DNA of 64,000 nt from Pocillopora verrucosa (lineage: Eukaryota > Cnidaria > Anthozoa > Scleractinia > Pocilloporidae): contig NC_089320.1 of the NCBI RefSeq assembly GCF_036669915.1, forward strand, positions 20,411,982 to 20,475,981, given 5' to 3'. The notes below the pieces were generated by a model. That model saw nothing but the letters and a program-made list of their open reading frames with translations. It searched no databases and had not been told where the DNA came from. The position numbers and the translations under genes were made by a program. The stretch's first letter is position 1, and each line of letters starts with the position of its first letter. Shown here piece by piece: positions 10,064 through 64,000 of the stretch.

Positions 10064-13000
10064 TTACATGGAGCTCATTTTGGCCTTCTCTTGCAGTCTT
10101 CTGTCTCGCTCCTCGGCAATAGTAAGCCTGACACCCTTGCCCTTGGGCAGGGACACATGTGGCTTGTTGGTCTTGCCAATGATGAAGATGTTACTGATAC
10201 GCGTGGCAAACTGATGGCCAGTGTTGTCTTTCACGTGGACAATGTCAAATGAACCTGGAAATGATGTACACTTACTAAGCTATTGGTTGAATGACATCAG
10301 TTTGAAAGCTTTTTCAGAAGCTAATATCTTGCACTACTAAACTTAAAGCACTTTCTCAGACTGTTTTTCATTTCTTGATTGTCTATGGTTTTGAAGGCGG
10401 TCTGGCCAGGAATGGACCTGAGAGGACCTATAAACCTTGGAGTCTGTTTGAATTCAAGTCCTTTTAATTACACTTTATTGCATTTTAAATGAAACAAAAT
10501 ATTTTCTCAATGAATCCTAACCCAGTGATGAAAAGACTTTTTGCATGTATATCTGTTTGGATTTTTAAAGTTCAATCAACCACTCATTGGAAAACTCCTT
10601 GTGAAAGTTCCAAATGATCTAACACAAGATATTCCATCCTATTTTAAAGAGAAAATTCTCTGAGCTAGGCCTAAGATCTCTAGCATAACATGCACATTAT
10701 GCAGCCCTGTTTACAGAAGATAGGACAGAAAAAAGAATTGCTCGTCTAGTTTCAGTTACCCAAACTATCAATTTCCTACCTGCATGTCTCTCACGATGAG
10801 TAACAATTCCAACTCGGCCCATGTTGCGTCCTCCAACAACCATAGCGAGATTTCCAGTGTCAAACTTGATAAAGTCAATGATCTTACCACTCTTGATTTC
10901 AATAACCACAGTGTCGTGCAGAGAGATAAGAGGGTCAGGATAACGGATGGTACGACCATCATGGGTAACAAGGTAGGGAACACCCTTGGCGCCAGTGGCC
11001 ACACGTCGCACTTGACCAAGCTTGTACTGCAAAGTCAAACAAGTAAATCTTAAAAGGAGCAAGTCCAAAGTCATATGTTACTCACCATAACTGACTGCTT
11101 TGGACATGTGTAACATTGAAACACAATCATGGGTAAATTTGTGTCACTTTGTGTCTGGATAGACAAGTGGATAAGTTCAAAGATATAAAATGAAACCTGT
11201 CAATATGCAGAGTTGATGGTCAAGTCCTGAACTTCTTTTATCTCCCTTAAGCAAATATCAAATGATAATTTTTTTTCACTCATGTCTATTAGAGTAAGCA
11301 GCAACAGTTCAGGTGTACACAACAACTCCTTGCTAAAGGCTCAATTTTTAGGAAGAGTTCATGGTGGTTGGCAGAAATACAAATGATCAAAGAACAACTC
11401 AAGCCAAACTACAATTAAAGTTCCCTTTGTTTTTTTAAAGAAAAAATCTTGCCAAATCTAAAGCTTGTATTTTATGACAGCTTGTTTCCCGTGTTATTTA
11501 TAAAATGGAGTATTTCTTATTCAAAGGAGGTTATTAAAAATCCTTGGATAGGCATATGTTATTGTGCAACTCACCTTGGCTTCCTCACCAGTAATGCGGT
11601 GAACAGTGAAGCGACCTTTCACATCGTACAACAGGCGGAAATTCTCACCAGTCTTTTCAATGGAGATGACATCTAGATTGTCCAGGGAAAAGAGTATAAG
11701 GCATTTATTACTTTGGGAGTTACTCTTCAACATGAAAATCATAACAGTATACTAATTGCCAAAATGAAATTTAGTATTGGCTGATCAATTGAGTTTATAT
11801 CCTTAATTCAGCCATAGTGGATATTTACTCACCCTATGACAGCAAGCATAGCTTAAGAACTATTCAGTACCTTGTAATAATAGCACTGGAGGAAAGAGGT
11901 AATTTCTATTTCTATAAGAACTTACTTAGGTAGATCCCTAATTGCTAGTGTAGACAACAGGCATAAAACAACTGTATACTAGGAAATGTTTGTTTAAAAG
12001 CAAGAGGGGAAGGGCAGTAGTCTCATTATTCAGCTGTTAATTTTGGCATGATCACAAGAGAGTTATCCTAATCAAAAAAATGAAGAGAACAGATTTCAAC
12101 CCTCATAACTTCCTAAAATTTAAGTTTTCCATTTCTCCCCAAAATGAAAACATTTCTGAGGTAATGGGTAAAAGGCTTATTGCAAATTTTTCCCCTCATT
12201 AATATATATATAAAGAGGAGCCTCAGAAAATTAATGTTGGAATTGAACCACACCTCAACATTAGGATGTATATTGTCCATACTGTTCTCTATACATTCTC
12301 TAAAGTTCTGCTGAGGAGAATTTGATTAACAGTCAAGAGCTTCTTTAGTTCCTGATCATTTCCTTTATGTTTGTGACCTTAATGTTTGATTTAAGGATAA
12401 TATTGGGAGGAGACATTAGATGCTTGTCACTCTTAAGGATTAAAGGGTTAAACCTCAGCTAACGCAATAAACAAAGACATCTTACCCATAAAGCCAGCTG
12501 GGTAGGTGACATCAGTCCTGACTTTCCCATCAACCTTGATCAACCTCTGCTTGAGGATTTTTTTCACCTCATCATATGTGAGGGCATACTTGAGGCGATT
12601 CCTCAGAAACACAATCAATGGCAAACATTCACGCAATTTATGGGGACCAGTGGATGGACGTGGTGCCTACAAAAAAACAAAATAATAATAATAATGACTG
12701 CATTATCTTTCTTGAGAATAGTTTTTTTTAATAACACAACTATAAATTCAAACAAAAACAAACACGTTTTGCAATAATTTTTTAAAGCTTTACAAAGTAA
12801 GAGAACTAACTGCCCACTGGTTGTCTCAATTAATTAATACTATAAGCACAAGCACAAAAATGAACAATTCTGATGGTTGTTTCTGTGCTTTGCTTGCAAA
12901 CTAAGTATTCTCCCAGTGGAAGAAAAAAGTGTGCGAAAAGATAAGGGAAGCGACACGAACAACACAATGTACTATTCAAATTCACTTTGAACGTTTAAAT

Positions 13001-16405: not shown

Positions 16406-16563
16406 TAGCCTGCAGTGCAGGCATCCTATTAGGGCAAATTAGCATTAAGAAGCATGTGATGGTTTATTCAAGCAGCAATGTTTGATTTGGATTTGGTTTG
16501 ATTTGGTGGAGGGTGGGGTTGAAGAAAGGCAAAATATTCACTCTCCCACTCCACCCCTCTTCT

Positions 16564-16605
<42 letters not shown>

Positions 16606-16742
16606 GTCACTCACCCCCTTGGTACAAATTTCTTTCTTTTCCCAGCCTTCTGCTACCTTTAAAATCAAAGTTGGTGGTCATAATTTTTGCTAAGAAAATA
16701 CTGAGTACTTGCTAGCCAAAATTATGACTACTCTGCAGGCTA
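16406..16742. mobile_element. Mutator-type MITE with 9-bp target duplication
   Basis: 337 bp bounded by the perfect inverted repeats TAGCCTGCAG and CTGCAGGCTA. GATATCAAA flanks both sides (16397-16405 and 16743-16751). A 9-bp target duplication is the hallmark of Mutator/MULE transposition. The interior holds a 37-T run (16566-16602) and a block CTTGGTACAAATTTCTTTC to TAATTTTTGCTAAGAAAATA that recurs, diverged, at 57061-57215. No transposase. Confidence 0.8.
16566..16602. repeat. Poly(T) tract of 37 bp
   Basis: Uninterrupted T run inside the Mutator-type MITE. Its length is prone to assembly and sequencing error. Confidence 0.9.
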
Positions 16743-27944: not shown

Positions 27945-29129
27945 ATGGAAGCGCAAACCAACCCTTACTCAAATCAGGTCGGCTCGGCCTCCACGCAGAG
28001 TGAAACTCGCGTTATTCAAAATCATCCGACCACCATGGCCTACGTACGAGATGAACACACAGTTGTAAAGTACGAGAATCTTGCTCCGGCTGCGAGCGTA
28101 GCTTCGCTGAACGACCAGCGAGTTGGGAATAATCACCTCGCAACACACCAGTGGGTTGTACAAGACCATACTGGAGCCGTTGGTTGGCCAGCGAACACAG
28201 TGAGTTTACAAGAAGTTAAACCAATCTTAAGAGAGGATGCTTCGCCTGTTATAACAACAATTGCTGGAGCAACGCTCGTCCATCATCGACCTGGTGGCCA
28301 CCCTGTAATGCCTTTAGAGCAAGCACGTTGGCCCAGTACTGCGTCGCATGGGGCACACTCGCCTGACCACACGCGTATCCATATCAGCAGCGCGATGCAA
28401 GCAGTTCCAACGACTCATCCATCGTACGGCACGATAAACGGAACGGTCCAACTTCAAGGAGCTTTCCCGCAAGCGCCGCAAACAATTCGCGAAAATCCGA
28501 ACGGCCAAGACGCGCCGCACGGATCTCACCCCGAACTAGAAACACAGGACGACACTCCTACGTCTGATGACTTGGAACAATTTGCGAAAGAATTCAAACA
28601 GCGTAGAATCAAGCTTGGTTTTACTCAGGCGGATGTCGGGCTAGCGCTGGGTACACTGTACGGAAATGTTTTCAGTCAAACCACCATTTGCCGTTTCGAG
28701 GCTCTGCAGCTGAGTTTTAAGAATATGTGTAAACTCAAGCCCCTGTTAGGCAAATGGCTCGAGGAGGCGGATAACAACAACGGTGCTGCGAGTGGCATCG
28801 ACAAGCTGGCTACTCAGGGTCGGAAACGTAAGAAGAGAACCTCCATCGAGGTGGCTGTTAAGGGTGCTCTGGAGAATCACTTCTGTAAAAATCCCAAACC
28901 GTCTGCGCAAGAGATCGGCACGCTCGCTGAAAACCTCGGACTCGATAAGGAGGTGGTTCGAGTGTGGTTCTGCAACAGGCGTCAAAAGGAAAAGCGAATG
29001 ACTGCTTCAGTTACTGGCGGAGCTGAAGATCAACACGTCGGGTCTCCTCATGTTTCTTCGCCTCACGTATCGTCTGGTCATGTCTCTTCTCCGCATATTG
29101 TTGGTGCGCACATCGCAGGGCCGCAGTAA
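27945..29129 (+). CDS. POU3: POU class III homeobox transcription factor (intronless)
   Basis: Sequence-specific nuclear transcription factor; class III POU genes (Brn1/Brn2/Brn4/Oct6 type) act in neural and sensory development. A single exon of 394 residues; lack of introns is usual for the class. The POU-specific domain spans about residues 208-276 ([20 protein letters not shown] ... [20 protein letters not shown]), a 16-residue linker follows, and the homeodomain spans 293-352 with [11 protein letters not shown] and the POU-typical recognition helix [15 protein letters not shown]. One variation from the usual class III sequence is LGKWLEEAD where N is common for G. The N-terminal half is low in structure and rich in Gln, His, Thr and Pro. 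The C-terminal tail holds a pentapeptide repeat (residues 364-389). The start has A at -3 and G at +4. Flanked by long gene-poor DNA on both sides. Confidence 0.96.
29034..29126 (+). repeat. Histidine-spaced pentapeptide repeat in POU3 tail
   Basis: Coding repeat. A histidine recurs every five residues six times: [30 protein letters not shown]. Codons vary between units, so the repeat is not a recent DNA slippage product. Confidence 0.8.
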
Positions 29130-48234: not shown

Positions 48235-49286
48235 TTATTTGGAGGCATCAAAGAAAATCACTGACTCATCTCCAACCACAGAGGCATTGTGAACAGTACC
48301 AGCTGGTACAACAATCATGTCTCCAGGCTGTAAAATTACTTCTTGGCCACACATGGCAAACCTGAATTGTCCAGAAACAATGGAGTCTTTTTTGGACATT
48401 ACGTGAGTATGATCAGGAAAGTCAGTGCCAGGAGCAAAAACATATTTTGTAAATGAATACCCCTGTGACTTGAGCTTGTTTCCCATATTTCTTTCATTCA
48501 ATGGACCATCTCTTCTGCTGTCCCAATGTTCTACATTCAACTGTGACATGTCAGTGGAATGGTGAACCTATGAAGTAATAGTAATTATATAATAAACTGA
48601 ATCGTGCAAGTATTTTGAGGACAAGCACAAAGATGATATCATCACTGAAGACTGTTTGCTTCTTAATTGTAAAAAACAAATAGGATCCCATGTTGCTGAG
48701 GGTCTGTACAGTAACAGATCACAGAAGATGTCTATGCCTGGTGTGCCACTTCTGTGTTCTTACCACATTTTGACGTCATCAGTGATCTATTGCTGAACAG
48801 ATGCACATATGCATAATAGGGAATCTATTTGTGCATCAGAATATACTAAATTTACATGCACACAAAGAATACCATACAACTTTTCCCTGGCTATTTTGCA
48901 AGATGATTTTTTTTCTCTCATCAACAACAAAGAATGAAAATTCCGTCAGTCATGCTTGAAGTGCTCTTAATTTGTTCAAAATAATAATTAAGCCTAGTCA
49001 GAACTGTGAACTGCTAGGAGGAGCTAAAACTCTCAACGTCACGTTACTATTTGTGAAGAGCACTTCACCTCCATTAAACAACTATCAGTGAAAAACCAGC
49101 TAGTTGTTTAAAGCTCAGGCGTGAACTTCTGCTGACAATAACCCAAACCAGTTTAAAACGAATGAATACAAACCAATGGAGAGCACTATAAAGTACAGGT
49201 CGAGTTCCTAGTTGATTCATTCAAAGCCACCCAGTTTAGGAGCGACGGGGAAAAGAAACCTCATTAGCGTTCTGTACCTTCAACAT
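48235..49286 (-). CDS. Small single-domain cupin protein
   Basis: 113 residues in two exons on minus: 49286-49278 (ATGTTGAAG, donor GTACAG) and 48567-48235 (acceptor TTCATAG, stop TAA). Exon 2 has its own in-frame ATG at 48549, so a 104-residue start is possible; the upstream ATG is preferred because the spliced frame is open through MLKVHHSTD. Cupin motif 1 is PGTDFPDHTH (His56, His58) with Gly69; the usual Glu ligand position is Lys62. Motif 2 is GDMIVVPAGTVHN with His96. Cupins are beta-barrel metal-binding enzymes or sensors; the substrate is unknown. No signal peptide, so cytosolic. It resembles small bacterial-type cupins, but the intron shows it is a nuclear gene. Confidence 0.82.
48677..48831. 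repeat. Foldback element in the cupin intron/5' region
   Basis: The left arm (CAAATAGGATCCCATGTTGC ... AACAGATCACAGAAGATGTC) pairs imperfectly with the right arm (GACGTCATCAGTGATCTATT ... GGGAATCTATTTG). The TTGACGTCATC segment recurs in both fibrinogen-like gene introns (about 51950 and 60963). Probably a MITE. Confidence 0.5.
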
Positions 49287-49299
49287 GGCGCAAATGGAA

Positions 49300-49747
49300 A
49301 GGGGGGAATTGAACTCTTCCCAAGGAGACTATTCCGATGAATGATCCGCGTCAAAAGCAGCATTATTACACATTCTTATAGCCTACCTGTAACTGTGAAT
49401 TTCGAGAATGTCCCACAATTTCGCACGACCCCCCATCCATACGCGAAGGCTTGGTTCCAAAGCTACGGTGAAAAGGTTATGGCGTCTAACACGGGTTGGG
49501 GGACGGGGGACGGTAAGGATGACGGGATGACGGGATGACCAGTTTCTTGAGCAAGTATTAAGTATTGGAAATTCTTTGAAGAAGGCATTACCCCTGCAAA
49601 TCGACAAGGTCAGCGGAAGATGCTGAACAGATCTGGTGTTGCGATCGTAGACGAACCGCATTCTTATCTGATTCATCGTTCGCAAAGTTGTGAAAACTTT
49701 CAGACTGTGAAAACTATGTACGTGATCGATGGCCCTGTTTTTCTACT
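49300..49747. other. Spacer between cupin gene and duplicated region
   Basis: No recognised gene. A short GACGGGATGACGGGATGACC direct repeat lies near 49520. Confidence 0.4.
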
Positions 49748-50149
49748 TAATAAAGCTGACGCCTTCTTTCGTAAGAATGTTTTAATCTGCAACAAGAATT
49801 TATAATCTTTTGTCTGCACATGATATAGTGCAAATAGGGAAATGCGCAAATTAAGGATCTGATACCGATAAAGAGATTAATTTTTCTTGCTAAAGGAATT
49901 TATCATTGGATTTGTGTTTTTTGGCCCTTTTTGCATTATTTTCCTTAATTTTGTGAAAAATGCAAATGATATATCCAAAACATAAAATGGAATTCTAATC
50001 AATAGAGTTATAGTCGTTGCCTTCAAGGATTGAATGTACTCAGTTGTGGATCCTCCCATGGCGGTGGAGAACAATTGCAAGTCGACATGATATGAGGAAA
50101 CCTCTCAGCGCTGCCATGTTCCCAATGGTCAGCCAATCTTATGATGAGT

Positions 50150-50361
50150 GTCTCAATGGGGTGGATGGCTTTTACAGCTAACGATTAAATTTAGCCATTT
50201 TACGGCTAACGGTTCATATCTCATTCCATCGTTGTCACCAGAAAATCATTTTTAAGTTTAACCTTTTTTTTTACGACTAACGGTTAAAATTTTTCAATTT
50301 TTACGGCAAGCGGCAAAATTGTTTAGCCGTTTTACGGCTAACGGTTAACCCCACTGAGACC
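50150..50361. repeat. MITE family 3 at 3' side of gene A
   Basis: Ends GTCTCAATGGGG and CCCCACTGAGAC form inverted repeats. The interior has several copies of TTACGGCTAACGG in direct arrangement. Same family at 55921, 58269 and 63449. Confidence 0.7.
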
Positions 50362-50515
50362 CTCTAACATGACTTTCGGCGACCTTTACACCAATTCAAA
50401 TCCCATGATAATTTTCACTTCCAAAATGTTCGTCGCACACTTGTGAATCCCTCCTTCCCCCACCTCCCTCGCCATTTCTCTCTGGACACCATCACTCAAA
50501 ATCACGCAATTCATT

Positions 50516-50521
50516 TTTATT
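50516..50521 (-). terminator. Possible poly(A) signal of gene A
   Basis: AATAAA on minus, about 190 bp past the stop codon at 50713. Confidence 0.4.
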
Positions 50522-50712
50522 CTTTTTATCATCATTTATCTAACTTTTCTTTTAACAGTCTATAATTGTAGTACGATCAATTCAAGTCTTGTTTTAATCA
50601 GGAGTGTGATCAGTTCTCCTGAAATGAGCAGTTTTTCAGGATGATAACTTTTTTACTACATACATGTATCCACCACAGGCCTTACAGAAATTCACCTTAG
50701 CATATTCAAGAT

Positions 50713-53700
50713 TTACTGAATAAATATGTATCCAAATGCCTTGATCCATGATACTCGTTGAATGTCTGCAAACTCGTTTCCACACGAATTCGAATCGTCC
50801 ATGCCGAAATACTTCCCTGCGGAACCAAACCCAATTCTGCTCTGCATACTTTGGTCACATTTTACTGGAGAGCCAATAATTCCAATACGAGTCTTGGCAC
50901 CAGTACCGAAGTCATGATCCTTGTTAATGCTATTGAAACCCTGTATCTGGCAACCGTCCTAACGAGAAAAAACATCAAAACGTACTGTTGTTTCAGAAAA
51001 GGACGATTCAAACAAACCTTTGTACACCTCTACAACTGACTTGTCGCTGATTAGAAGAACGTGTCTTGTTTATAAATGATTCTTTTTTTTCCTCAAGGAC
51101 CAGCGGGGAGGGATTACTCTTAATTAAACTTTGTGTCACTGGCTTAGCATAGGGAATTTGACATAAAGACTTTTCACCTGAATTTCTGAGTTATTCAGTA
51201 GCTTTTTCCATTCTGTTGAACTCAGATTTGTTGGTTGGAATGTTCCGTCGCCTATCACATCCCTCAGAGATGAGGCAGAGTAGTTCAAAGCAATCCAGTT
51301 TGTTTCGCCGTTGGCAGGGTGTTTCATGCCCAGACACAGTCGAGTGAAAGGTGTCGACCAAAAGCTGCTCAGTTTAGTTTCGTCTTCATTAAGGCTTGTT
51401 CCAGCAGACTCGTTGTAAGCAACAGTGTTATTCCAATATTCCGCATAGTACGTAAAGGTTTGCTGTCGATGAAGAATATGATTAAACACGTTCTTATGAT
51501 CACATATTTATTCAATATCGAAAATGACTACTGCGATTAAATATATTATTTTGATTCTAATTCAATTGCAACATTTAGTTGTTCCTATCACATCTCACAA
51601 ATAAATGTCGTTAAACATATCATTGGAAGCTGAAGTCATTTACAAATTGCTTTTTTTTCCTCGTCTCTCAAACAATTTAACAATTGTTTGGTAGATTTTT
51701 TCAACAGGTAAAGGCTTAAGAAAAAATAACCAGGAGCTATTCACGAACAAGAAACAGATACCGAGTCTTAACTGATTCGTTCGTAATTTTCCTTCTTTTT
51801 ATCTTCCTGTTCATTGTTTGAGACGAATAGATTATATTTTCCCGACGTCCTCTGGTTAAAAATCACAAAGGACACCAAAATTTGGTTACAAAAACATTGA
51901 TAGACCCGCGTGCCCACGGCTCGCTTTCCACGTTTTTATTCTTCGCACATCTTGACGTCATCTACGATCTATATCCAGACAGACACACAACAAAACATAA
52001 TAAAGTCGTTACAAAAGAAAATATGGGGACAGAGAGGGAAAATCAGGGCGTTGCACCGTTTTCTTTTAGTTGTTAAGAGTAATATTGATGACATACCTTT
52101 GTTCGTTGAAAACACACTGCAGTGAACGTAAAGTTAATCGTTTCCGGGGTTTCAGGCACTTTTTAACACCTTGAACACCAGGTCCTTAGATCTAGCGCTT
52201 ACGGATTCATCGATTCCTAAAAAAATCTCAGCTATCAACTGCGCAAAAGTTAACCCCAAAATACCTTGTGTCCATCAATTTTCATGACAAGTGTCCATCC
52301 GCCATCCCCACATCCGGGAATAGGAGTCATATGACAAAATACGGATGCTATCTTGGCAGACGAGTTTACCCGGATGCGGTAAGGACCGTCAAGACGGATT
52401 CTGAAGTAAAAGGAATGGATGGAAGTGAGTCTTAAGCTGAAGTTGCATTAAAAGGATTTTTGTCCAATTTTTGACCCAGATTCAGAAGTGTCAGGCGTCC
52501 TGTAGTGGGTTTTGTGCAAGAAGACCGCTGACTTTTCAGACTGACAAATTTCCCGATCGCGGTAGGTTAATAAAAAAGCCTTACCTTTTGTTCTTCCATA
52601 TCTCCTTACAGGAAAGAGGAATTCGGCCTGGAATGAAAGAATTAAAGACGAACTTGGAAAATAAGCAATGACCAAGCGCATGCAAGGAGTAAAAAAAAAG
52701 TGTCTCTAGACTAAAAATCATTTTATTCAGTTTCTTTAGTGTTTAACCTGAGATGGCCATGTCACAATAATCCAATACAGCGTTTCCTTTGCCACTTTCA
52801 TCCAGCCAGTACATGTTACTGACGGTGTCTTTACCCTCACTCAATTTTATTTCCTGACATGACTGCGCTGGTAGTTCTGGAATGGAGCCCAAGGGAACTG
52901 TAAAGCAATATATATCAGAATTACCCTCGTGGAGTGCAAAGCAGTGCGATTGAGGCTCAGTAAAGAGCCCTCGAATCATTCAGCATTACCAGTACTTACT
53001 ACAGAAATGGTTCGTCCAATCGTCAAGCTGTGCATTCTTTACGATGGCTGGTGCGAGGACATTCCTGTCTTAAAAGTTATCTTAGGAGCTAACAAACTGA
53101 AAGTAACACTCACCCTTAAAAAAAAAAAAACAATTCCAAAGCTAAACCAACTCACACGGGTAAATTTACTTTCACTCCCTGATAGCCTTAGGACAACCCC
53201 GGGTTGCTTTTCGATCTTGATTAAATCACTGCGATAGGTAACCCTTTTGCAGTCAAATTTTTGTAAGTGTTTTTAGTGTGAAGGTAGTCAAAGGGGCCAG
53301 TCCTCTCTATAAAGTAATCTTTGTCGAGAGCCGGGTCGTTCCGGCTAGAAGGAGTTAGATGTCCTCAACTTTTTTTTCATTTAAGCACTAACATGGTTGG
53401 CACTTTCACCCACGTAACCTTTTCTGCCTCATTTTTAACTCGTGAACTGCGCGCATGCGCAAGAGCGAGTAATAGATACGATGTGGGGAATGGCATTCGC
53501 TCGCTCGCTCGCTCGCTCGATTGGTCGATTCCTGTAAACTTTTTTTAGATTTTAGGCTTTTGAGTGCATTTGATAGTTTTTGGCGAGCAATAAACAGACG
53601 AAATGGCGACCTTTGTTGCTAAGAATAGTGGTGGGGTGAAAAAGAAGCCAATGATAATCTTAAAAGAGTTTTTTTTTCGTTTTAGTTTTAACAAGCGGCG

Positions 53701-55775
53701 CCAGCGACTGGCAGGCATGCAAGGATTCACACTGAAATAACAGAACAACCTTCGTTTTTCATAAAATTGTAATTTACAATCCTTGAACTTGAAAACAATC
53801 CCAAGATTCGTTGAAAATATCACTTACTGCGAAGCGCTCGGAGTTTACAGATGTTCAAAAGCTTTTTCTGTCATGGCGTGGGATTGAGGACAAAATTGAT
53901 CATTACGTTTCGTCGCGTGTGTTTTTCTTGTGTGAAGCAACAGAAGACGATGCCGGCGACTGACGAAATTACAAGTTAAAACGAAAATCAAATAACACCT
54001 AAACAAACAATTTTAGCTACCGATTTTCAGTGAATTTTTAAAGAACAATTTTCTTTTAAGTTTCAAGACAATTTGAAGATTCAACATACATACAACGTAC
54101 TAAAATGCGAAAGTTACACACCACAAAATTGATAAATAGGCCTGAAATGAAATTCTATCTTGTTATTGATTATACGTTGCCTAGCACGTGACTTAAATCT
54201 ACCCAGGTGGAGATCCAAAATGACGGTGGCAGTCTTGGCTTAGTTATATCACTCAAAACTCGTTCCCGTTTGTCTCATTTGATAAAGAGGGAATCGTTGA
54301 TGTTTTCATTATGACAGTATTGCCTTGATTTTCTAATATTTACAACGAAAGACAGTAAATTTCACTTTTCACCCACATTTACTTCCAACCTTTTCTTTTG
54401 AACCAGAAACAAAAATAATAGACGTTTAAAACACATAACATCATCCACCTTGTCAAATGTAATAGCATGATCATTTCAATTGTAATGCCTTCTTATCCCA
54501 ACGTTACTTTGTTTCTTTGCTACATTAGCGAACACTGAACTACTGCTCGTACTCTAGATATGACAATCAACCACAAAATTCCCTAAACCAGATAACACTA
54601 AACATAATCTAAAAAATCATGTGTAAATTCACGAGTTTGCTCACAGAGCACTTTGATCTATACTGTTTTAGATTCTATACATGATAGCCTTCCATAATTC
54701 CATCATACTAGGTGTGTATTTGTTACCTTACCTCAAGAGATATTGATATTCTCTTGCTGATCTCGAACTTTGTCAGGCTTTTTCGTAGGTAGAGAGTCTG
54801 ACCTGGGTCAATCTCGAAGCGAACCGCATGCTAGTGAACACTGTTACAAATAAACCTGGGCTCGTGTAAAGAAGCTCTTAGTTGTTCAGAATACTTTTAC
54901 AAACATGACTTTTAAAGGTCTTATTTTCTGTACGTTTCCGTCATCCTCAATTATATTCCGATATGGAAACGAGCAAGGATGTTACCTTGACCTATTTCGG
55001 AGACCGAGAAATTATTCGACAGTGCTGACATCCAAGTAAATGTACCTACCTCGGCCATTTAAACGTCGGATGTAAAACCATGCAGGAGCTGAGATGAAGT
55101 TTTCTGGTCTTGCTTCCTTGGTGCGGTTATTTAACTCGCAAATCTTGTTTTCTCTGTTGTAGTTGTAGCTTTGACAGGTAATTTCCTGTTCGCATTTGAC
55201 ATCACACAGGTAAGGGGCTGTTGTTAACAATATTTTAAACGTGAAACCCTTGAGAGCCCTGCTTTGTATGTTAACTTCTGTTCTCCATTGGTCTTTGGCA
55301 GCTGCGAGGCTCAAAACGAGAACGACAAAGACAAGGATAGAAGAACCCGTATACTGCGCTTCACCTGCCTGCTAAAATTAGAGAATATGTTAACTTCAGG
55401 ATGCAAGCCAAAAGAGATGAAACAAGTTTTTGTGAGAATTGAGCCGGGGCATACAGCAATCTTGGGCTCATTGTTGCACCAAAAAAATATCTGCAACTGT
55501 GGCGCAGTCTCATGCGCCCTTTTTCACCTGCTGGTTGCGAAGAGAAATATCAGTATTTTGAAATTATTTCTGATCACAGTATCAGTATCAAGTGTTTCAG
55601 GTTTAGATAAGACTACCTCATTCAGTTCCTTGACAGCATATCTAAAATAAGAGCATATACCAAAAATTGTTATTCATTGACGGCGCGAGATGAAGGGTAT
55701 TGATAAAACTTAATTTCGACATATAGCGCAGGGCTCCTCTTTAAACATTATAATTACCTTACAAAAATACGACAT
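50713..55775 (-). CDS. Secreted PAN/fibrinogen-like protein, copy A (USOMP5-like)
   Basis: 399 residues from seven coding exons on minus: 55775-55758, 55371-55050, 52897-52748, 52627-52585, 52400-52265, 51462-51178, 50958-50713; all phases agree. The N-terminal MSYFCK leads to the hydrophobic segment SILVFVVLVLSLAAA (about 17-31), a signal peptide. An apple/PAN-like region (about 38-112) has CDVKCEQEITCQSYNYN and KICELNN. A first SCQEI...YCDM half-module (exon 3) is followed by a fibrinogen-like domain: LSCKEIW, VFCHMTPIPGCGDGGWTLVM, TRLCLGMK, then RIGFGSAG and DDSNSCGN (calcium-loop-like). The end is IKAFGYIFIQ. Order and terminal motifs match coral skeletal matrix proteins of the USOMP5 group (family knowledge); a lectin-like role is equally possible. 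Paralogue of the gene at 58860-63303. Confidence 0.85.
53437..54637. other. Intron segment present only in copy A
   Basis: Lies in the large intron between exons 2 and 3 of gene A; copy B jumps from CTGCCTCATTTT to CTATACTGTTT. Near both edges is the 10-bp inverted motif AACTCGTGAA/TTCACGAGTT. It also holds a (TCGC)n tract (53497-53519). It may be a transposon insertion in A or a deletion in B. No coding exon is apparent. Confidence 0.45.
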
Positions 55776-55873
55776 CGTATTTACGGTTGAATACAGCACC
55801 AAAATCCTCTCAAGAAAACTTTGCCTCGTGAAGTTTGACGCACCGATGAAATCCAACCATGCGCACTGTGGAG
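55758..55873 (-). other. Leader exon of gene A with upstream ATG
   Basis: Acceptor TTATCTTTCTTTAG at 55874, donor at 55757. Holds the presumed start ATG (55775) and an earlier, out-of-frame ATG (55860) opening a 16-codon frame that ends before the main start. The frame of the main ORF is also open through the whole exon. Confidence 0.5.
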
Positions 55874-55920
55874 CTAAAGAAAGATAAGGACAAGTGTTGG
55901 TTTTAGCTTAGCTTCTTGAG

Positions 55921-56108
55921 GGTCTCAATGGAGTTAACCGTCAGCCGTAAAAACGACCAAAACATTCTTAGCCATCGGGCGTGACAAATTTCAACCGTTC
56001 GTCGCAAAATTTTCTTCTACTCACAAAGGAAGGGAGTTGACCATTAGCCGTTAAATGGCCAAAAATTTTAACGGTTACCCACAAAGTGACTTTATCCCCA
56101 TTGAAACC
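55921..56108. repeat. MITE family 3 at 5' side of gene A
   Basis: Ends GGTCTCAATGGAGTTAACCG and CCCCATTGAAACC; interior AGCCGTTAAATGGCC. Inverted relative to the copy at 50150. Confidence 0.65.
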
Positions 56109-56177
56109 TTCTTATTAAAGCAGCTACGCGGATTTGAGATGAGTTTGCTATAAAATATGTTTAAGAATCTCTCTTAC

Positions 56178-56233
56178 CTCCGAAGACGAACACCACAACT
56201 TCCCGTTCCTCCACAACAGGTGTTCGCAATGGC
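56178..56233 (-). other. Probable upstream 5' exon of gene A
   Basis: 56 bp between acceptor GATTTCAG and donor GAG/GTAAGAG, conserved in length and borders in copy B (63703-63758). One frame is open in both copies. Coding status unknown. Confidence 0.45.
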
Positions 56234-56477
56234 CTGAAATCGAATTCAGTTTTGACGAGCCAATAGCATTCAGTGACGCTCTGCAGGTATGATTACGTTT
56301 AATACCACTCTGTCAATAATTTGAAGAAAACGACAAAACTTTTAAGTTTTTAAAACACGTTTCGACAGAACTTCTGTCATCCTCAGTTAATTTATGTACA
56401 AAGCGTTGGAAGTTGAATTTATAAATGAATTTACTAAGACCGAAACCCACAAAATTTCATTAAAAAAACCAACCCTA

Positions 56478-57896
56478 TATGGAAAATTACACATTCCAGA
56501 GCCAGAATTTACGAAAAAAAGATTTTATGTGGCATCGGATTAACCAAAATGTAGATGATTTTCTAGAATATCTGCAAAATTTGAGGGCCATCATGTAGGA
56601 GAAAACATGAAATTCGTCTTGTTAAACAAACAGACACCACACGCAATTGCTACTGAGCTATCGTCAAGATGCAAATATTGGAATCATTATTAAGGCTGGT
56701 ACTGAATGACAACGTGTCCAGCATTAATAATTAGTTATAGTTTTTAAATATCAAATCCAAACTGAAATACATATAGCAGACTGTGGCTGTCGCAACAGCT
56801 ATTTTGAATGGAAATTTCCATATATTAACGGAGACTCCAGCGATTATTAGGCACATGACAGGTGCTCCCTTATATTGGGAAGCTTTCTCTACATGTGAAC
56901 TTGTACTTTTACCTTCTGTGTCAAACATAATGCTTAACAAGTGTTCAAATCACATGAAAACATTGGGGGGGGGGGGGGGGAAGGCGAGAGAAAAAGTTGA
57001 GGCGAGTGCTAAAGTGCCCCTAACCTGAAGTGCAAGCGTCTTATTTGAGCGGGTTAACGTTAAGAAGTGCACGATCGTTTATTCAACCAGCCATGTTTGA
57101 TTTCGAGTTAGAGTCGACTGTCGCTCACCTCCTTGGTACAAATTATTTCTCTCCCCAGCCTTCCGCTGTCATTAAATTCAAAGATGGCGGCCATAATTTT
57201 CGCTAAGAAAATGCTTTTGGTTTTATCTGCCTCAAATTACGTTTGAAAATGTCTGTGTTTGTAAGATATTATGTTACTTTATATTTGACATTTCAAAAAT
57301 TGATAAAGAAATGCGTAAAGCAAGGATTAGATGATAATGAAGAGATAAAACTTTGTATTGTGAATGTAAAAGGAATGCTAATGAAGTTATTGTTATTGCC
57401 CTTAAAAGTTAAAATCGACTGGAGGATCCTCCCTCAATGTTGATCACATTACATCGGGTTTTACTCCATATCTTGTTTATTTCTGTGAACACCGAACGGA
57501 GATACTTGCCTGTTTGGGAAACGAAAACTCTATTTGTCCACCAACGCTTATTATCGTGATTAAAAAATGACCACTTTTGTAACGACAAACAATTATTAAA
57601 TGGCAATCTTCACATATCTTCCTCTACATCTCTAGTTTGAAAAGTGAATTTCTTACACATAAAATTCAGTCCTACAAAAACTTTTAGCTTGTGATACAAA
57701 GTTGACAATTTTGATAAATAAATTTACTAAGACTTAAAACTTTTTCACTGAAATTACCCCCTGCAGAGAATGAAGATTCGTGTGATTACTGAAAGAACAA
57801 TGGAAGTGCTCTTTTTAACTGAGAGGATTACCCCTCAGGCAAAAAGGCAGAGGAAGAAACCAGTGTTATTTTAAAATCATCGGTAATAATAATAAT
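56478..57896. other. Spacer between duplication units
   Basis: No recognised gene. It has a 16-G run (56965-56980), a block at 57061-57215 (TTTATTCAACCAGCCATG ... ATAATTTTCGCTAAGAAAA) related to the Mutator-type MITE interior at 16460-16690, and an (AAT)n microsatellite ending at the unit B boundary (about 57881-57900). Whether part of it belongs to unit A cannot be seen here. Confidence 0.45.
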
Positions 57897-58268
57897 AATA
57901 AAGCTGACGCCTTCTTTTGTAAGAATGTTTTACTTTGCAACAAGAGTTTATAATCTTTTGTCTGCATATGATATAGTGCGAATAGGGATACCGATGAAGA
58001 GATTAATTTCTTTTTGCTAAAGGAAATTGTAAGTGGATTTGTGTTATGTTTTGCCCTTTTGCTTAATTTTGTGAAAAATGCAGATAATATATTCAAAACA
58101 TAAAATGGAATGCTAATCAATGGAGCTATGGTTGTTTCCTTTCAAGGATTGAATGTACTCAGTTGTGGGTTCTCCCATAGCGGTGGAGAACAATTGCAAA
58201 TCGTCATGATATGAGGAAACCACTCTGCGCTGCCATGTTCCCAATGGTCAGCCAATTTTACGATGAGT

Positions 58269-58477
58269 ATCTCAATGGGATGGATGGCTTTTACGGCTAC
58301 CGGTTAAATTTGGCCATTTTACGGCTAACGGTTCATATCATTGCATTGCTATCAGCAGAAATTCATTTTTAAGGTTAACTTTTTTTTACGACTAACGATT
58401 AAAAATTTGTCAATTTTTACGGCAAACAGACAAATTGTTTGGCCGTGTTATGGCTAACGGTTAACCCCACTGAGACC
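58269..58477. repeat. MITE family 3 at 3' side of gene B
   Basis: TCTCAATGGGATGGATGGC ... GGTTAACCCCACTGAGACC, aligned with 50150-50361 and so inherited through the duplication. A 16-C run (58578-58593) follows. Confidence 0.7.
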
Positions 58478-58859
58478 TTCTGACATAGCTTTCGGCGACT
58501 TTTACACCAATTCAAATCCCATGATAATTTTCATTTCCAAAACGTTCGTCGCACACTTGTAAATCCCTCTCCCCCTTCCCCCCCCCCCCCCCCAACTTCC
58601 CTTACCATTTCTCTCTGGACACTATCACTAAAAAACACGCAATTCATCTTCCTTTTTTTTTTCTTTTTTTTTTTTTACATAATTTATGTAACTTTTCTTT
58701 TAACTTTCTATGATTGTAGTACGATCAATTTAAGTCCACTTAAATCAAAAGTGTGATCGGTTTTCTTGAAATGAGCAGTTTTTCATGATGATGACTTTTA
58801 TACTACATACATGTACCCACCACAGGCCTTACAGAAATTTAATTTAGCATATTCAAGAT

Positions 58860-61800
58860 TTACTGAACAAATATGTAGCCAAATGCCTTAATCGATACCA
58901 AGCCGCGTAGCTGGTTTCCACACGAATTCGAATCGTCCATTTGGTAAAAACTTCCGGCGGAGCCAAACCCAATTCTGCTCTGCATAACTTCATTACAATG
59001 AACTGAAGAGCCAATAATTCCAATACGAGTCTTAGCACCGACACTGAAGTCATGATACTCGGCAATGCTATTGAAACCCTGCATCTGGCAACCGTCCTAG
59101 CGAGAAAAAACATCAGATGTACTGTTATTTCAGAAAAGAACGATGTAAACAAACCTTTGATCGTTAAATACATGTACACACAGTACATATGACCTGAACA
59201 ACCATATATATACGGCTAAGATACATAACATTATGGAACGTAAAGTAATAATACTGAATACCACACAAATAAGTGGTATAATCGACTAAGTCTGCGTTCT
59301 ATCTACGTATACTGATTTGGAGTAACGAGGAGTTTTAGCAACGCTGCTTTTATCATATATATGTGATAGGCTGTTCAAGTAAACCCATGCTAGTTACATT
59401 AAACCTACAATAAGCGTCAAAATAAGTTGAAGGGTTCTATTAATGTGCAGACCACAATTTAAATCATTGATGAGACCCCCCTCCCTTATTTAATGTTTCC
59501 TGTACGTAGCTAAAGATTCATGAAATCACGTTGCAACACTGTACTGTTTAAGCGGTGAGGGGGCAAATGGGTTGACTTAACAAGGGAAAAAGATATAAAA
59601 TTGAAGTGATAAGGGTTGGAGAGGTCAATGTGTCAACAGTTTTGTCGACAATTCTAGATGTAAGTCGGTAATAGATTCTCCTGATTTCAGATGGTAAATG
59701 CAAGAGCAAATCCTTTTATCACGTACACCTCTACCACTGACTTGTCGCCCATTAGAAAAACGTGTCTTGTTTATAAATGATTCTTTTTTTCCCCATAGGA
59801 ACAGAGGGGAGGGATTACTCTTAATTGAACTATGCGCCACTGGCTTTGCATAAGGAATTTGACGTAAAGGCTTTTCACCTGAATTTCTGAGTTATTCAGT
59901 AGCTTTTTCCATTCTGTTACACTCAGATTTGTTGGTCGGAATGTTCCGTCGCCTATCACATCCCTTAGAGATGAGGCAGGGTAGTTCAAGGCAATCCAGT
60001 TTGTTACGCCGTTGGCAGGGCGTTTCATGCCCAGACACAGTCGAGTGAAAGGTGTCGACCAAAAGCTACTCAGTTTAGTTTCGTCTTCATTAAGGCTTGT
60101 TCCAGCAGACTCGTTGTAAGCAACAGTGTTATTCCAATATTCTGCATAGTACGTAAAGGTTTGCTGTCGATGAAGAATAATATATAGTTTAGCCAAGCCT
60201 AAAAGCGTAACTCCAATTTTTTTTTTTTACGCACGTCTCAAGGGCACAACGCCTTGGCCCGGCCAGGACTAGAACCCGGGTCGTCCGACTCGGAGCCCAG
60301 TGCACTGACTACTGGACAACTGGACAAAGCCGTGGCGTTGGCGTGTCCGCGGTACAGTTGACCACGCATGTTAAAAGTAGTACCTTGTACGGTCGTACGG
60401 TCGTACATCCAAATTTTTTGGCTTGATGGGTTACTACTATTTTGTATAATTATGGGGCTACGCTCTGCGAGCTCCGCTATGATTAAACACGTTCTTATGA
60501 TCACATATTTATTGAATATCGAGAATGACCACTGCGATTAAATATATTATTTTGATTCTAATTCAATTGCAATATTTAGTTATTCCTATCACATCTCACA
60601 TCTCACAAATGTTGTTAAACATATCATTGGCAGCTCAAGTCATTTACAAATTTTTTTTTTTTACCTCGTCTCTCCAACATGGCGCACAATTTAACAATTG
60701 TTTGGTTGATTTTTTCAACAGGTAAAGGCTTAAGAAAAAATAAGGAGCTATTCACGAACAAGAAACAGATACCGAGTCTTAACTGATTCGTTCGCAATTT
60801 TCCTTCTTTTTATCTTCCTGTTCATTGTTTGAGACGAATAGATTATATTTTCCCGACGTCCTTTGGTTAAAAATCACAGAGGACACCAAAATTTGGTTAC
60901 AAAAACATTGATAGACCCGCGTGCCCACGGCTCGCTTTCCACGTTTTTATTCTTCGCACATCTTGACGTCATCTACGATCTATATCCAAACAGACACACA
61001 ACAAAACATAATAAAGTCGTTACAAAAGAAAATATGGGACAGAGAGGGAAAATCAGGGCGTTGCACTGTTTTCTTTTAGTTGTTAAGAGTAATATTGATG
61101 ACATACCTTTGTTCGTTGAAAACACACTGCAGTGAACGTAAAGTTAATCGTTTCCGGGGTTTCAGGCACTTTTTAACATCTTGAACACCAGGTCCTTAGA
61201 TCTAGCACTCATGGATTCATCGATACCTAAAAAATCTCAGATATCAACTGCGTAAAAGCTAACCCCAAAATACCTTGTGTCCATCAATTTTCATGACAAG
61301 CGTCCATCCGCCATCCCCACATCCGGGAATGGGAGTCATGTGACAAAACACGGATGCTATCTTGGCAGACGAGTTTACCCGGATGCGGTAAGGACCGTCA
61401 AGACGGATTCTGAAGTAAAAGGAATGGATGGAAGTGAGTCTTAAGCTGAAGTTATATTAAAAGGGTTTTGTCAAATTTTTGACCCAGATTCAGAAGTGTC
61501 AGGTGTCCTGTAGTGGGTTTTGTGCAAGAAGACCGCTGACTTTTCAGACTGACAAATTTCCCGATCGCGGTGAGTTAATAAAAAAGCCGTACCTTTTGTT
61601 CTTCCATATCTCCTTACAGGAAAGAGGAATTCGGCCTGGAATGAAAGAATTAAAGACGAACTTGGAAAATAAGGAATGACCAAGCGCATGCAAGGAGTAA
61701 AAAAAAAGTGTCTCTAGACCAAAAATCATTTTTTTCAGTTTCTTTAGTGTTTAACCTGAGATGGCCATGTCACAATAATCCAATACAGCGTTTCCTTTGC

Positions 61801-63303
61801 CACCTTCATCCAGCCAGTACATGTTACTGACGGTGTCTTTACCCTCACTCAATTTTATTTCCTGACATGACTGCGCTGGTAGTTCTGGAATGGAGCCTAA
61901 GGGAACTGTAAAGCAATATATATCAGAATTACCCTCGTGGAGCGCATTAACTGGTTAACTAACACAGTGATTAAATCTCTACGATAGTTAACCCTTTTGC
62001 GGTCAAATTTTTGTAAGTGTTTTTAGGGTAAAGGTAGTCAAAGGGGCCAGCCCTCTCTATTAAGTAATCTTGTCGAGAGCCGGGTTGTTCCGGCTAGAAG
62101 GAGTTATATGTCCTCAACTTTTTTTTTTATTTAAGCACTAACACGGTTGGCACTTTCACCCACGTAACCTTTTCTGCCTCATTTTCTATACTGTTTCAGA
62201 TTCTATACATGATAGCCTTCCATAATTCCATCATACTCGGTGTGTATTTGTTACCTTACCTCAAGAGATATTGATATTCTCTTGCTGATTTCGAACTTTG
62301 TCAGGCTTTTTCGTAGGTAGAGAGTCTGACCTGGGTCAATCTCGAAGCGAACCGCATGCTAGTGAACATTGTTACAAATAAACCTGGGCTCGTGTAAAGA
62401 AGCTCTTAGTTGTTCAGAATACTTTTACAAACATGACTTTTAAAGGTCTTATTTTCTGTACGTTTCCGTCATCCTCAATTATATTCCGATATGGAAAAGA
62501 GCAAGGATGTTACTAATAACCTATTTCGGAGACCGAGAAATTATTCGACGGTGCTGACATCCAAGTAAATGTACCTACCTCGGCCATTTAAACGTCGGAT
62601 GTAAAACCAGGCAGGAGCTGAGATGAAGTTTTCTGGTCTTGCTTCCTTGGTGCGGTTATTTAACTCGCAAATCTTGTTTTCTCTGTTGTAGTTGTAGCTT
62701 TGACAGGTAATTTCCTGTTCGCATTTGACATCACACAGGTAAGGGGCTGTTGTTAACAATATTTTAAACGCGAAACCCTTGAGAGCCCTGCCTTGTATGT
62801 TAACTTCTGTTCTCCATTGGTCTTTGGCAGCCGCGAGGCTCAAAACGAGAACGACAAAGACAAGGATAGAACGACCAGTATACTGCACTTCACCTGCCTG
62901 CTAAAATTAGAGAATATGTTAACTTCAGGATGCAAGCCAAAAGAGATGAAACAAGTTTTTGTGAGAATTGAGCCGGGGCATACAACAATCTTGGGCTCAT
63001 TGTTGCACCAAAAAAATGTCTGCAACTGTGGCGCAGTCTCATGCGCCCTTTTCACCTGCTGGTTGCGAAGAGAAATATCAGTATTTTGAAATTATTTCTG
63101 ATCACAGTATCAGTATCAAGTGTTTCAGGTTTAGATAAGACTACCTCATTCAGTTCCTTGACAGAATATCTAAAATAAGAGCATATACCATAAAATTCTT
63201 ACTCATTGACGGCGCTAGATGAAGGGTATTGATAAAAATTAATTTCGACATAAAGCGCAGGGCTCCTCTTAAACATTATAATTACCTTACAAAAATACGA
63301 CAT
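58860..63303 (-). CDS. Secreted PAN/fibrinogen-like protein, copy B (USOMP5-like)
   Basis: 396 residues from seven coding exons on minus: 63303-63286, 62900-62579, 61905-61756, 61635-61593, 61409-61274, 60163-59879, 59096-58860; borders correspond one to one with copy A. The signal peptide, PAN-like region and first SCQEI half-module are nearly identical to A (I count four changes in exon 2, one in exon 3, none in exons 4-5, five in exon 6). The last exon is very different: about 23 substitutions and a three-residue gap in 78-81 residues, while TRIGIIGS, MQSRIGFGSAG, MDDSNSCGN and IKAFGYIF are kept. Exon 4 uses donor GTACGG where A has GTAAGG, which may weaken splicing. No stop or frameshift, so it appears functional. 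An acceptor choice 3 bp further in would drop one Gln in exon 2 of either copy. Confidence 0.85.
59163..59725. other. Intron segment present only in copy B
   Basis: Lies in the last intron of gene B. Copy A passes directly from CAAACCTTTG to TACACCTCTAC. No terminal repeats or coding content recognised. It could be an insertion in B or a loss in A. Confidence 0.45.
60179..60480 (-). mobile_element. tRNA-like SINE unique to copy B
   Basis: Absent from the matching intron of gene A, which reads GATGAAGAATATGATTAAAC without interruption. On minus it starts AGCGGAGCTCGCAGAGCGTA, then carries a tRNA-like part with CCCGGGTTCTAGTCC (B box) and ends in an A-rich run (T run on plus at 60219-60229). 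It lies just inside the intron upstream of exon 6. A fully occupied versus empty site makes its limits firm. Confidence 0.75.
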
Positions 63304-63401
63304 CGTATTTACGGTTGAATACAGCATCAAAATCCTCTCAAGGAAACTTTGCCTCGTGAAGTTTGACGCACCGACGAAATCCAACTATGCGCACTGTGGA
63401 G
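63286..63401 (-). other. Leader exon of gene B lacking the upstream ATG
   Basis: Same borders as the exon at 55758-55873. At 63386 the base differs (GCGCATA instead of GCGCATG on minus), removing the upstream ATG and placing TAG in the long open frame. Confidence 0.5.
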
Positions 63402-63448
63402 CTAAAGAAAGATAAGGACAAGTGTTGGTTTTAGCTCAGCTTTTTGAG

Positions 63449-63633
63449 GGTCTCAATGGGGTTAACCGTCAGCCGTAAAATGACCAACATTCTTAGCCAT
63501 CGGGCGAAACAAATTTCAACCGTTAGTCGCAAAATTTTCTTCTACTCACAAAGGAAGGGAGTTGACCGTTAGCCGTTAAATGGCCAAAATTTTTAACCGT
63601 TAGCCATAAAGTGACTTTATCCCCATTGAGACC
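63449..63633. repeat. MITE family 3 at 5' side of gene B
   Basis: GGTCTCAATGGGGTTAACCG ... TTTATCCCCATTGAGACC; the terminal inverted repeats are better preserved than in the unit A counterpart. Confidence 0.7.
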
Positions 63634-63702
63634 TTCTTATTAAAGCAGCTACGCGAATTTGAAATGAGTTTGCTATAAAATATGTTTAAGAATCTCTCTT
63701 AC

Positions 63703-63758
63703 CTCCGAAGACGAACATCACAACTTCCCGTTCCTTCACTTCAGATATTCGCAATGGC
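63703..63758 (-). other. Probable upstream 5' exon of gene B
   Basis: Counterpart of 56178-56233, with acceptor GATTTCAG and donor GAG/GTAAGAG retained. One frame is open in both copies; another frame gains a stop in B. Confidence 0.45.
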
Positions 63759-64000
63759 CTGAAATCGAATTAAGTTTTGACGAGCCAATAGCATTCAGTG
63801 ACGCTCTGCAGGTATGATTACGTTTAATAGCACTCTGTCAATAATTTGAAGAAAACGACAAAACTTTTAAGTTTGTAAAATATGTTTCGACAGAACTTCT
63901 GTCATCTTCAGTTAATTAATGTACAAAGCGTTGGAAGTTGAATTTATAAATGAATTTACTAAGGCCGGAATCCACAAAATTTCATTAAAAAAACCAACCT

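Follow-up and report, generated by a model that had tools for sequence, protein, structure and literature searches.

The 64,000-nucleotide window analyzed here (Pocillopora verrucosa contig NC_089320.1, positions 20,411,982 to 20,475,981 of the forward strand) contains two tandem units, with one minus-strand gene per unit, whose exons we designate A to F. Probably, the pair arose by tandem duplication, and the middle of the unit was later homogenized, leaving the last exon (exon F) and the 3' flank with an older divergence. The alignment shows tandem duplication, in a unit of ∼8 kb, of a gene encoding a PAN domain and a fibrinogen/intelectin-like domain. Once the copies had diverged, ∼4.7 kb with exons A to E was homogenized, most likely by gene conversion or by an equivalent unequal exchange. 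The end of this tract lies near the junction of exon E and the last intron; the last exon, the last intron, and the 3' flank keep the older divergence. Within the last exon, islands of residues appear constrained and the loops between them free to change, by relaxed constraint or possibly by positive selection. The two proteins would thus have a common body and differing C-terminal loops.

A preliminary description of this DNA had reported that the last exon is far more diverged than the other exons, with its variable residues lying between fixed islands. The residue counts given there were accurate: 10 of 312 residues differ in exons A to E (302 identical), compared with 23 of 78 aligned residues in exon F, which also has a three-codon indel. 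The changes in exon F are indeed clustered between the islands (19 runs; 20,000 permutations, P about 1e-4). By the Nei-Gojobori method (NG86), the synonymous (dS) and nonsynonymous (dN) distances were 0.060 and 0.017 for exons A to E; for exon F, they were 0.339 (0.169-0.579) and 0.188 (0.115-0.278), a dN/dS of 0.55. Among codons encoding the same amino acid in both copies, a synonymous change was present in 7/55 in exon F and in 12/302 in exons A to E.

The notion that this divergence is special to the last exon did not hold, as the whole block from 49740 to 51171 is raised, non-coding DNA included. When the two units were aligned within the window, non-coding DNA differed at 137/1155 positions on the last-exon side and at 113/2856 on the other (P = 6e-19). 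A single changepoint was placed at 51170, eight bases into the last intron, with a log-likelihood (lnL) gain of 69.1 and a 2-lnL interval of 51147-51189; 200 permutations, for which a coarser grid was scanned, gave gains of at most 8.9. The changepoint was unchanged when exon F was removed (gain 49.8 versus 6.8; interval 51147-51221) and when only non-coding columns were used (gain 40.3 versus 6.7; interval 51137-51478, exon E then being blank). The Bayesian information criterion (BIC) likewise selected exactly two segments within the window, with one boundary at 51171. Exon-specific divergence was rejected on these grounds, as the step near the exon E/last-intron junction is common to non-coding DNA.

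Unit 2 ends outside the window, at the equivalent of window position ∼65074. We extended the comparison by 1.1 kb of the same contig past the window end. On the extended alignment, BIC favored three segments, at 13.1%, 3.2%, and 6.6% divergence. With non-coding positions only, the left, middle, and right segments differed at 137/1149, 79/2298, and 104/1587 positions, respectively (left versus middle, P = 1e-20; middle versus right, P = 1e-5). Divergence is therefore low between higher values on both sides, in coding and non-coding DNA alike, and the tract at 51172-55907, bounded in this way, fits the expectation for a conversion tract. Tandem duplication alone would give all parts one age. The preliminary description had offered, as an alternative to selection, gene conversion that homogenized everything except the last exon. 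There is strong support for the homogenized remainder; what escaped, however, is not the last exon alone but a 1.4-kb block that also includes the last intron and 3' flank.

The left edge of the repeat unit was placed at 49748/57896 by blastn, and exon limits were set by eye from splice sites (Table 1). Several stretches have no counterpart in the other copy and were left out of the divergence counts. Copy 1 alone contains 1.2 kb (53436-54656) inside the homogenized tract, as well as stretches at about 52940-53217 and 56929-57280. Copy 2 alone contains 59160-59722 and 60180-60477. The former, ∼150 bp from the divergence step, has no second copy in the window; a heterology of this kind could have halted conversion. 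Part of the latter resembles a transfer RNA (tRNA)-derived repeat by eye, and ARAGORN detected no tRNA in it.

Table 1. Coordinates of the duplicated units, their exons and segments, and other features.
Feature	Position	Strand	Remarks
Tandem unit 1 (gene copy 1), ∼8.1 kb	49748..57895	-	blastn, unit 1 versus unit 2
Tandem unit 2 (gene copy 2)	57896..64000	-	blastn, unit 1 versus unit 2; runs past window end
Unhomogenized block of unit 1 (last intron, last exon, 3' flank)	49740..51171	.	13.1% versus copy 2, 11.9% non-coding; partner 57888-59872
Homogenized tract with exons A to E	51172..55907	.	3.2% over 3234 aligned columns, 3.4% non-coding; partner 59873-63435
Right (upstream) flank	55908-57895	.	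6.6% versus copy 2, also 6.6% non-coding
Copy 1 exon A	55371-55050	-	Hydrophobic leader and PAN domain; 5' exon end uncertain
Copy 1 exon B	52897-52748	-	
Copy 1 exon C	52627-52585	-	
Copy 1 exon D	52400-52265	-	CGDGGWTLVMKIDG; fibrinogen/intelectin-like N-terminal subdomain
Copy 1 exon E	51462-51178	-	
Copy 1 exon F (last)	50958-50713	-	81 codons and TAA
Copy 2 exon A	62900-62579	-	
Copy 2 exon B	61905-61756	-	
Copy 2 exon C	61635-61593	-	
Copy 2 exon D	61409-61274	-	
Copy 2 exon E	60163-59879	-	
Copy 2 exon F (last)	59096-58860	-	78 codons and TAA
Copy-2-only stretch in last intron, 563 bp	59160..59722	.	Opposite 51022 of copy 1 (blastn)
Copy 2 insertion just upstream of exon E, 298 bp	60180..60477	.	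blastn
Solitary last-exon relic	G000:C7:17773562-17773687		71% over query positions 68-188
POU-homeobox gene	27945-29129		Pfam Pou 1.9e-38, homeodomain 1e-19
Cupin_2 domain reading frame	48235-48549		5.9e-12
Ribosomal protein S4e piece with KOW motif	10697-11074		

Several observations weigh against duplication followed by homogenization of the middle as a complete account. Exon F differs at 44/237 positions (18.6%), more than its own flank at 137/1155 (P = 0.008). The excess is present in synonymous changes (13 versus 5.7 expected from the flank, P = 0.003), part of which may stem from multiply changed codons, and in nonsynonymous changes (31 versus 22.1 expected, P = 0.03). Divergence is lower in the right flank (6.6%) than in the left (11.9%; P = 1.5e-6); thus, a single duplication age with a single conversion event does not account for all three levels. 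Older or patchy conversion, or differing mutation rates, are possible sources of the intermediate right flank. A five-segment partition contains a stretch with 14/84 columns differing at 52930-53285, although BIC prefers the three-segment partition to it. The DNA search retrieved no third intact copy that could reveal the donor and direction of conversion. Finally, a survey of two coral genomes (Porites/Pocillopora) states that gene conversion is very rare in corals (PMC10236652). The basis given there is that very few tandem pairs keep their exon/intron structure (PMC10236652). The present pair, with introns kept at about 96-97% beside a block at 88%, might be a case that a whole-gene criterion misses.

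Diversifying selection acting on a recognition surface at the C terminus, as proposed in the preliminary description, could have parted the last-exon loops on top of the conversion boundary. This explanation is compatible with homogenization of the middle, and we regard it as a tentative possibility. As a statement about the last exon as a whole, it was not borne out: synonymous and non-coding divergence is raised around the exon (dS of 0.34 versus 0.06; non-coding divergence of 11.9% versus 3.4%), the pattern that the preliminary description had named as arguing against selection. A dN/dS above 1 for the whole exon was likewise rejected, as NG86 gave 0.55 and maximum likelihood (ML) gave 0.64. 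These values lie below 1, but the ML estimate, which was 0.70 without the indel-region codons, does not differ significantly from 1 (twice the log-likelihood difference [2dlnL], 1.32), so a dN/dS well below 1 in the exon, the other outcome said to speak against the proposal, is only partly borne out. Selection on amino acids also does not predict the synonymous excess over the flank described above.

The nonsynonymous excess over the flank and the distribution of changes within the exon speak for loop selection. With islands and loops picked after the fact, dN/dS was 0.11 in the islands (52 codons) and 1.30 in the segments between them (26 codons; 2dlnL 0.18). Two-class models, run with the transition bias fixed at 1.7, gave results that depended on the treatment of dS. 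With dS free, the upper class reached 2.4-2.7 and was not significant for either 78 codons (2dlnL 2.85) or the 71 codons outside the indel region (2dlnL 2.98). When dS was instead set to 0.129, as in the flank, about one-third of codons fell in a class with a dN/dS of 6.6 (78 codons; 2dlnL 16.0) or 4.8 (71 codons; 2dlnL 9.9). The verdict on loop selection hinges on the flank being a fair clock, which two sequences cannot settle, and we consider selection as an additional force changing the tail a weak hint.

In intelectins, binding-site changes alter sugar specificity, and a single change suffices to shift it (PMC12800186). We found no homology of the last exon to a known pocket in comparisons with the intelectin C terminus. 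A profile comparison was matched or exceeded in score by 168/200 column shuffles, and in twelve pairwise tests 40 to 436 of 500 shuffles scored as high; no intelectin-type C terminus was thus recognized by sequence, and the calcium loop and ligand pocket proposed in the preliminary description are putative. A whole-chain hhalign run at a very low confidence cutoff laid exon F along the intelectin C terminus with little posterior support. A structure model of exon F alone had a mean predicted local distance difference test (pLDDT) score of 39.5, unusable for placing the variable sites. The stronger proposal is of a secreted coral protein, lectin-like or of the matrix, in which conversion keeps the body identical while the last exon escapes it and positive selection parts the loops; in our judgment this is unlikely. 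If the loop signal were true selection, the pair would point to a secreted coral protein whose tips have diversified. Tachylectin-2, likened here by description only, is a coral recognition gene, putatively of immunity, with published positive selection (PMC2880987), unlike the present pair, for which no dN/dS above 1 was established.

A chimeric origin of the gene is quite unlikely. Here, unequal crossing over or a short conversion would have supplied one copy with the last exon and 3' flank of a more distant relative in the family. Such an origin could account for a last exon more diverged than its flanks at synonymous sites also, and an additional last-exon relic is present on another contig. 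The DNA search with exon F, which covered a 353-Mb assembly of 52 contigs and gives a lower bound, retrieved at least three places: the two copies and this relic. No donor was found by this search. In a three-way alignment with the relic, 13 changes were unique to copy 1, 16 were unique to copy 2, and 11 positions differed in all three; with near-equal numbers of unique changes, neither copy is the odd one. The exon-like reading of the relic is split between two frames, and no other exon of the gene was found in its 9.9-kb neighborhood. In an alignment-dependent comparison, the relic has the shorter form, as does copy 2; thus, copy 1 seems to have gained its three extra codons by insertion.

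Searches for further relatives were likewise negative. No third copy was found in the rest of the window, where the best last-exon match outside the pair had an E value of 2.0, or in the 19.8 kb past the window end (the first 1.7 kb being the end of unit 2), where the best exon match had an E value of 0.17. Pattern matches in viral contigs (n = 55) and prokaryote genomes (n = 34) included no relatives. With at least three places by last-exon DNA search, two copies and one relic, the variable recognition family suggested in the preliminary description is not supported.

One copy might be decaying, with constraint on its last exon relaxed. This would agree with an ML dN/dS of 0.64 that is not different from 1 and with the start codon of exon A, which was identified in neither copy, but we consider it very unlikely. 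No in-frame ATG was identified at or upstream of 55371 (copy 1) or 62900 (copy 2), and the start codon of both copies may lie in a further 5' exon. Against decay, both last exons keep an open frame and stop codon, the last intron keeps its donor and acceptor in both copies, the islands look constrained, and the changes are evenly split between copies. An assembly artifact, with two haplotypes set side by side, is highly improbable: near-identical tandem units are generally known as an assembly error, but the 3-13% divergence with its one-point step, the several large insertions, and the two distinct flanks are unlike allelic difference.

The encoded protein is probably secreted, with PAN and fibrinogen/intelectin-like domains predicted from the sequence. 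The PAN domain of exon A scored 30.6 bits against PF00024 (cutoff 21.4). Exons C and D matched the N-terminal fibrinogen-like subdomain of intelectin-1 (hhalign E value of 1.4e-7; 50 columns, 44% identity), and it is in this part that the pair is like the intelectins (X-type lectins); the last exon, without similarity to their C terminus above shuffles, sets it apart. Placozoan intelectins are also reported to align with vertebrate ones in the N-terminal part only (PMC6321704). The best PDB match was 4wmq (E value of 0.008), and the next two matches were likewise intelectin or serum lectin. Pfam Fibrinogen_C was matched by only one of the two members (E value of 0.008), and phmmer of the domain against PDB, with a query without exon C, returned no matches. 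We also observed weak matches of exon B (52748-52897) to the fibrillar collagen C-terminal domain COLFI (best E value of 5e-4, with member 1 under the Pfam cutoff) and of exons C and D to the GON domain (E value of 0.1).

The pair may resemble the coral USOMP-5/egg-protein-like (EP-like) family, and the last-exon islands may resemble USOMP-5 of Acropora millepora (B8VIU6); both likenesses serve as leads only. USOMP-5/EP-like proteins, including Euphyllia and Galaxea egg proteins, are reported to be coral skeletal-matrix and egg proteins whose EP-like genes expanded in a lineage-specific manner (PMC4890752). The name has been given both to a gene down-regulated in low-Mg/Ca corals (PMC6637933) and to a Euphyllia egg protein (PMC7579821). 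Given these matrix-linked and egg-protein uses, recognition and matrix roles are both possible.

A literature search, which lacked the organism and locus name, found no paper on the present gene pair. Among known systems, tandem duplicates with partial gene conversion share with it a sharp step regardless of coding status, a homogenized middle, and diverged flanks; the intermediate right flank of the present pair is unlike them. A striking exon-specific contrast between paralogues can arise from a conversion boundary. The pair is also one well-delimited case of apparent homogenization of introns and exons in a coral, set against the "very rare" of the survey of two coral genomes (PMC10236652).

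Imperfect TTTTACGGCTAACGGTTAA-like motif repeats flank the gene on both sides and in both orientations, at 50143-50366 and, by eye, at 55900-56090, 58280-58460, and 63460-63620. The stretch at 50143-50366 matches DNA past the window end twice in reverse, at 71-74%, and these repeats are probably a dispersed element. A further dispersed repeat was noted at 57021-57215 and 16406-16702: two adjoining stretches, close to the 5' end of unit 1, have counterparts elsewhere in the window at 75-84% identity.

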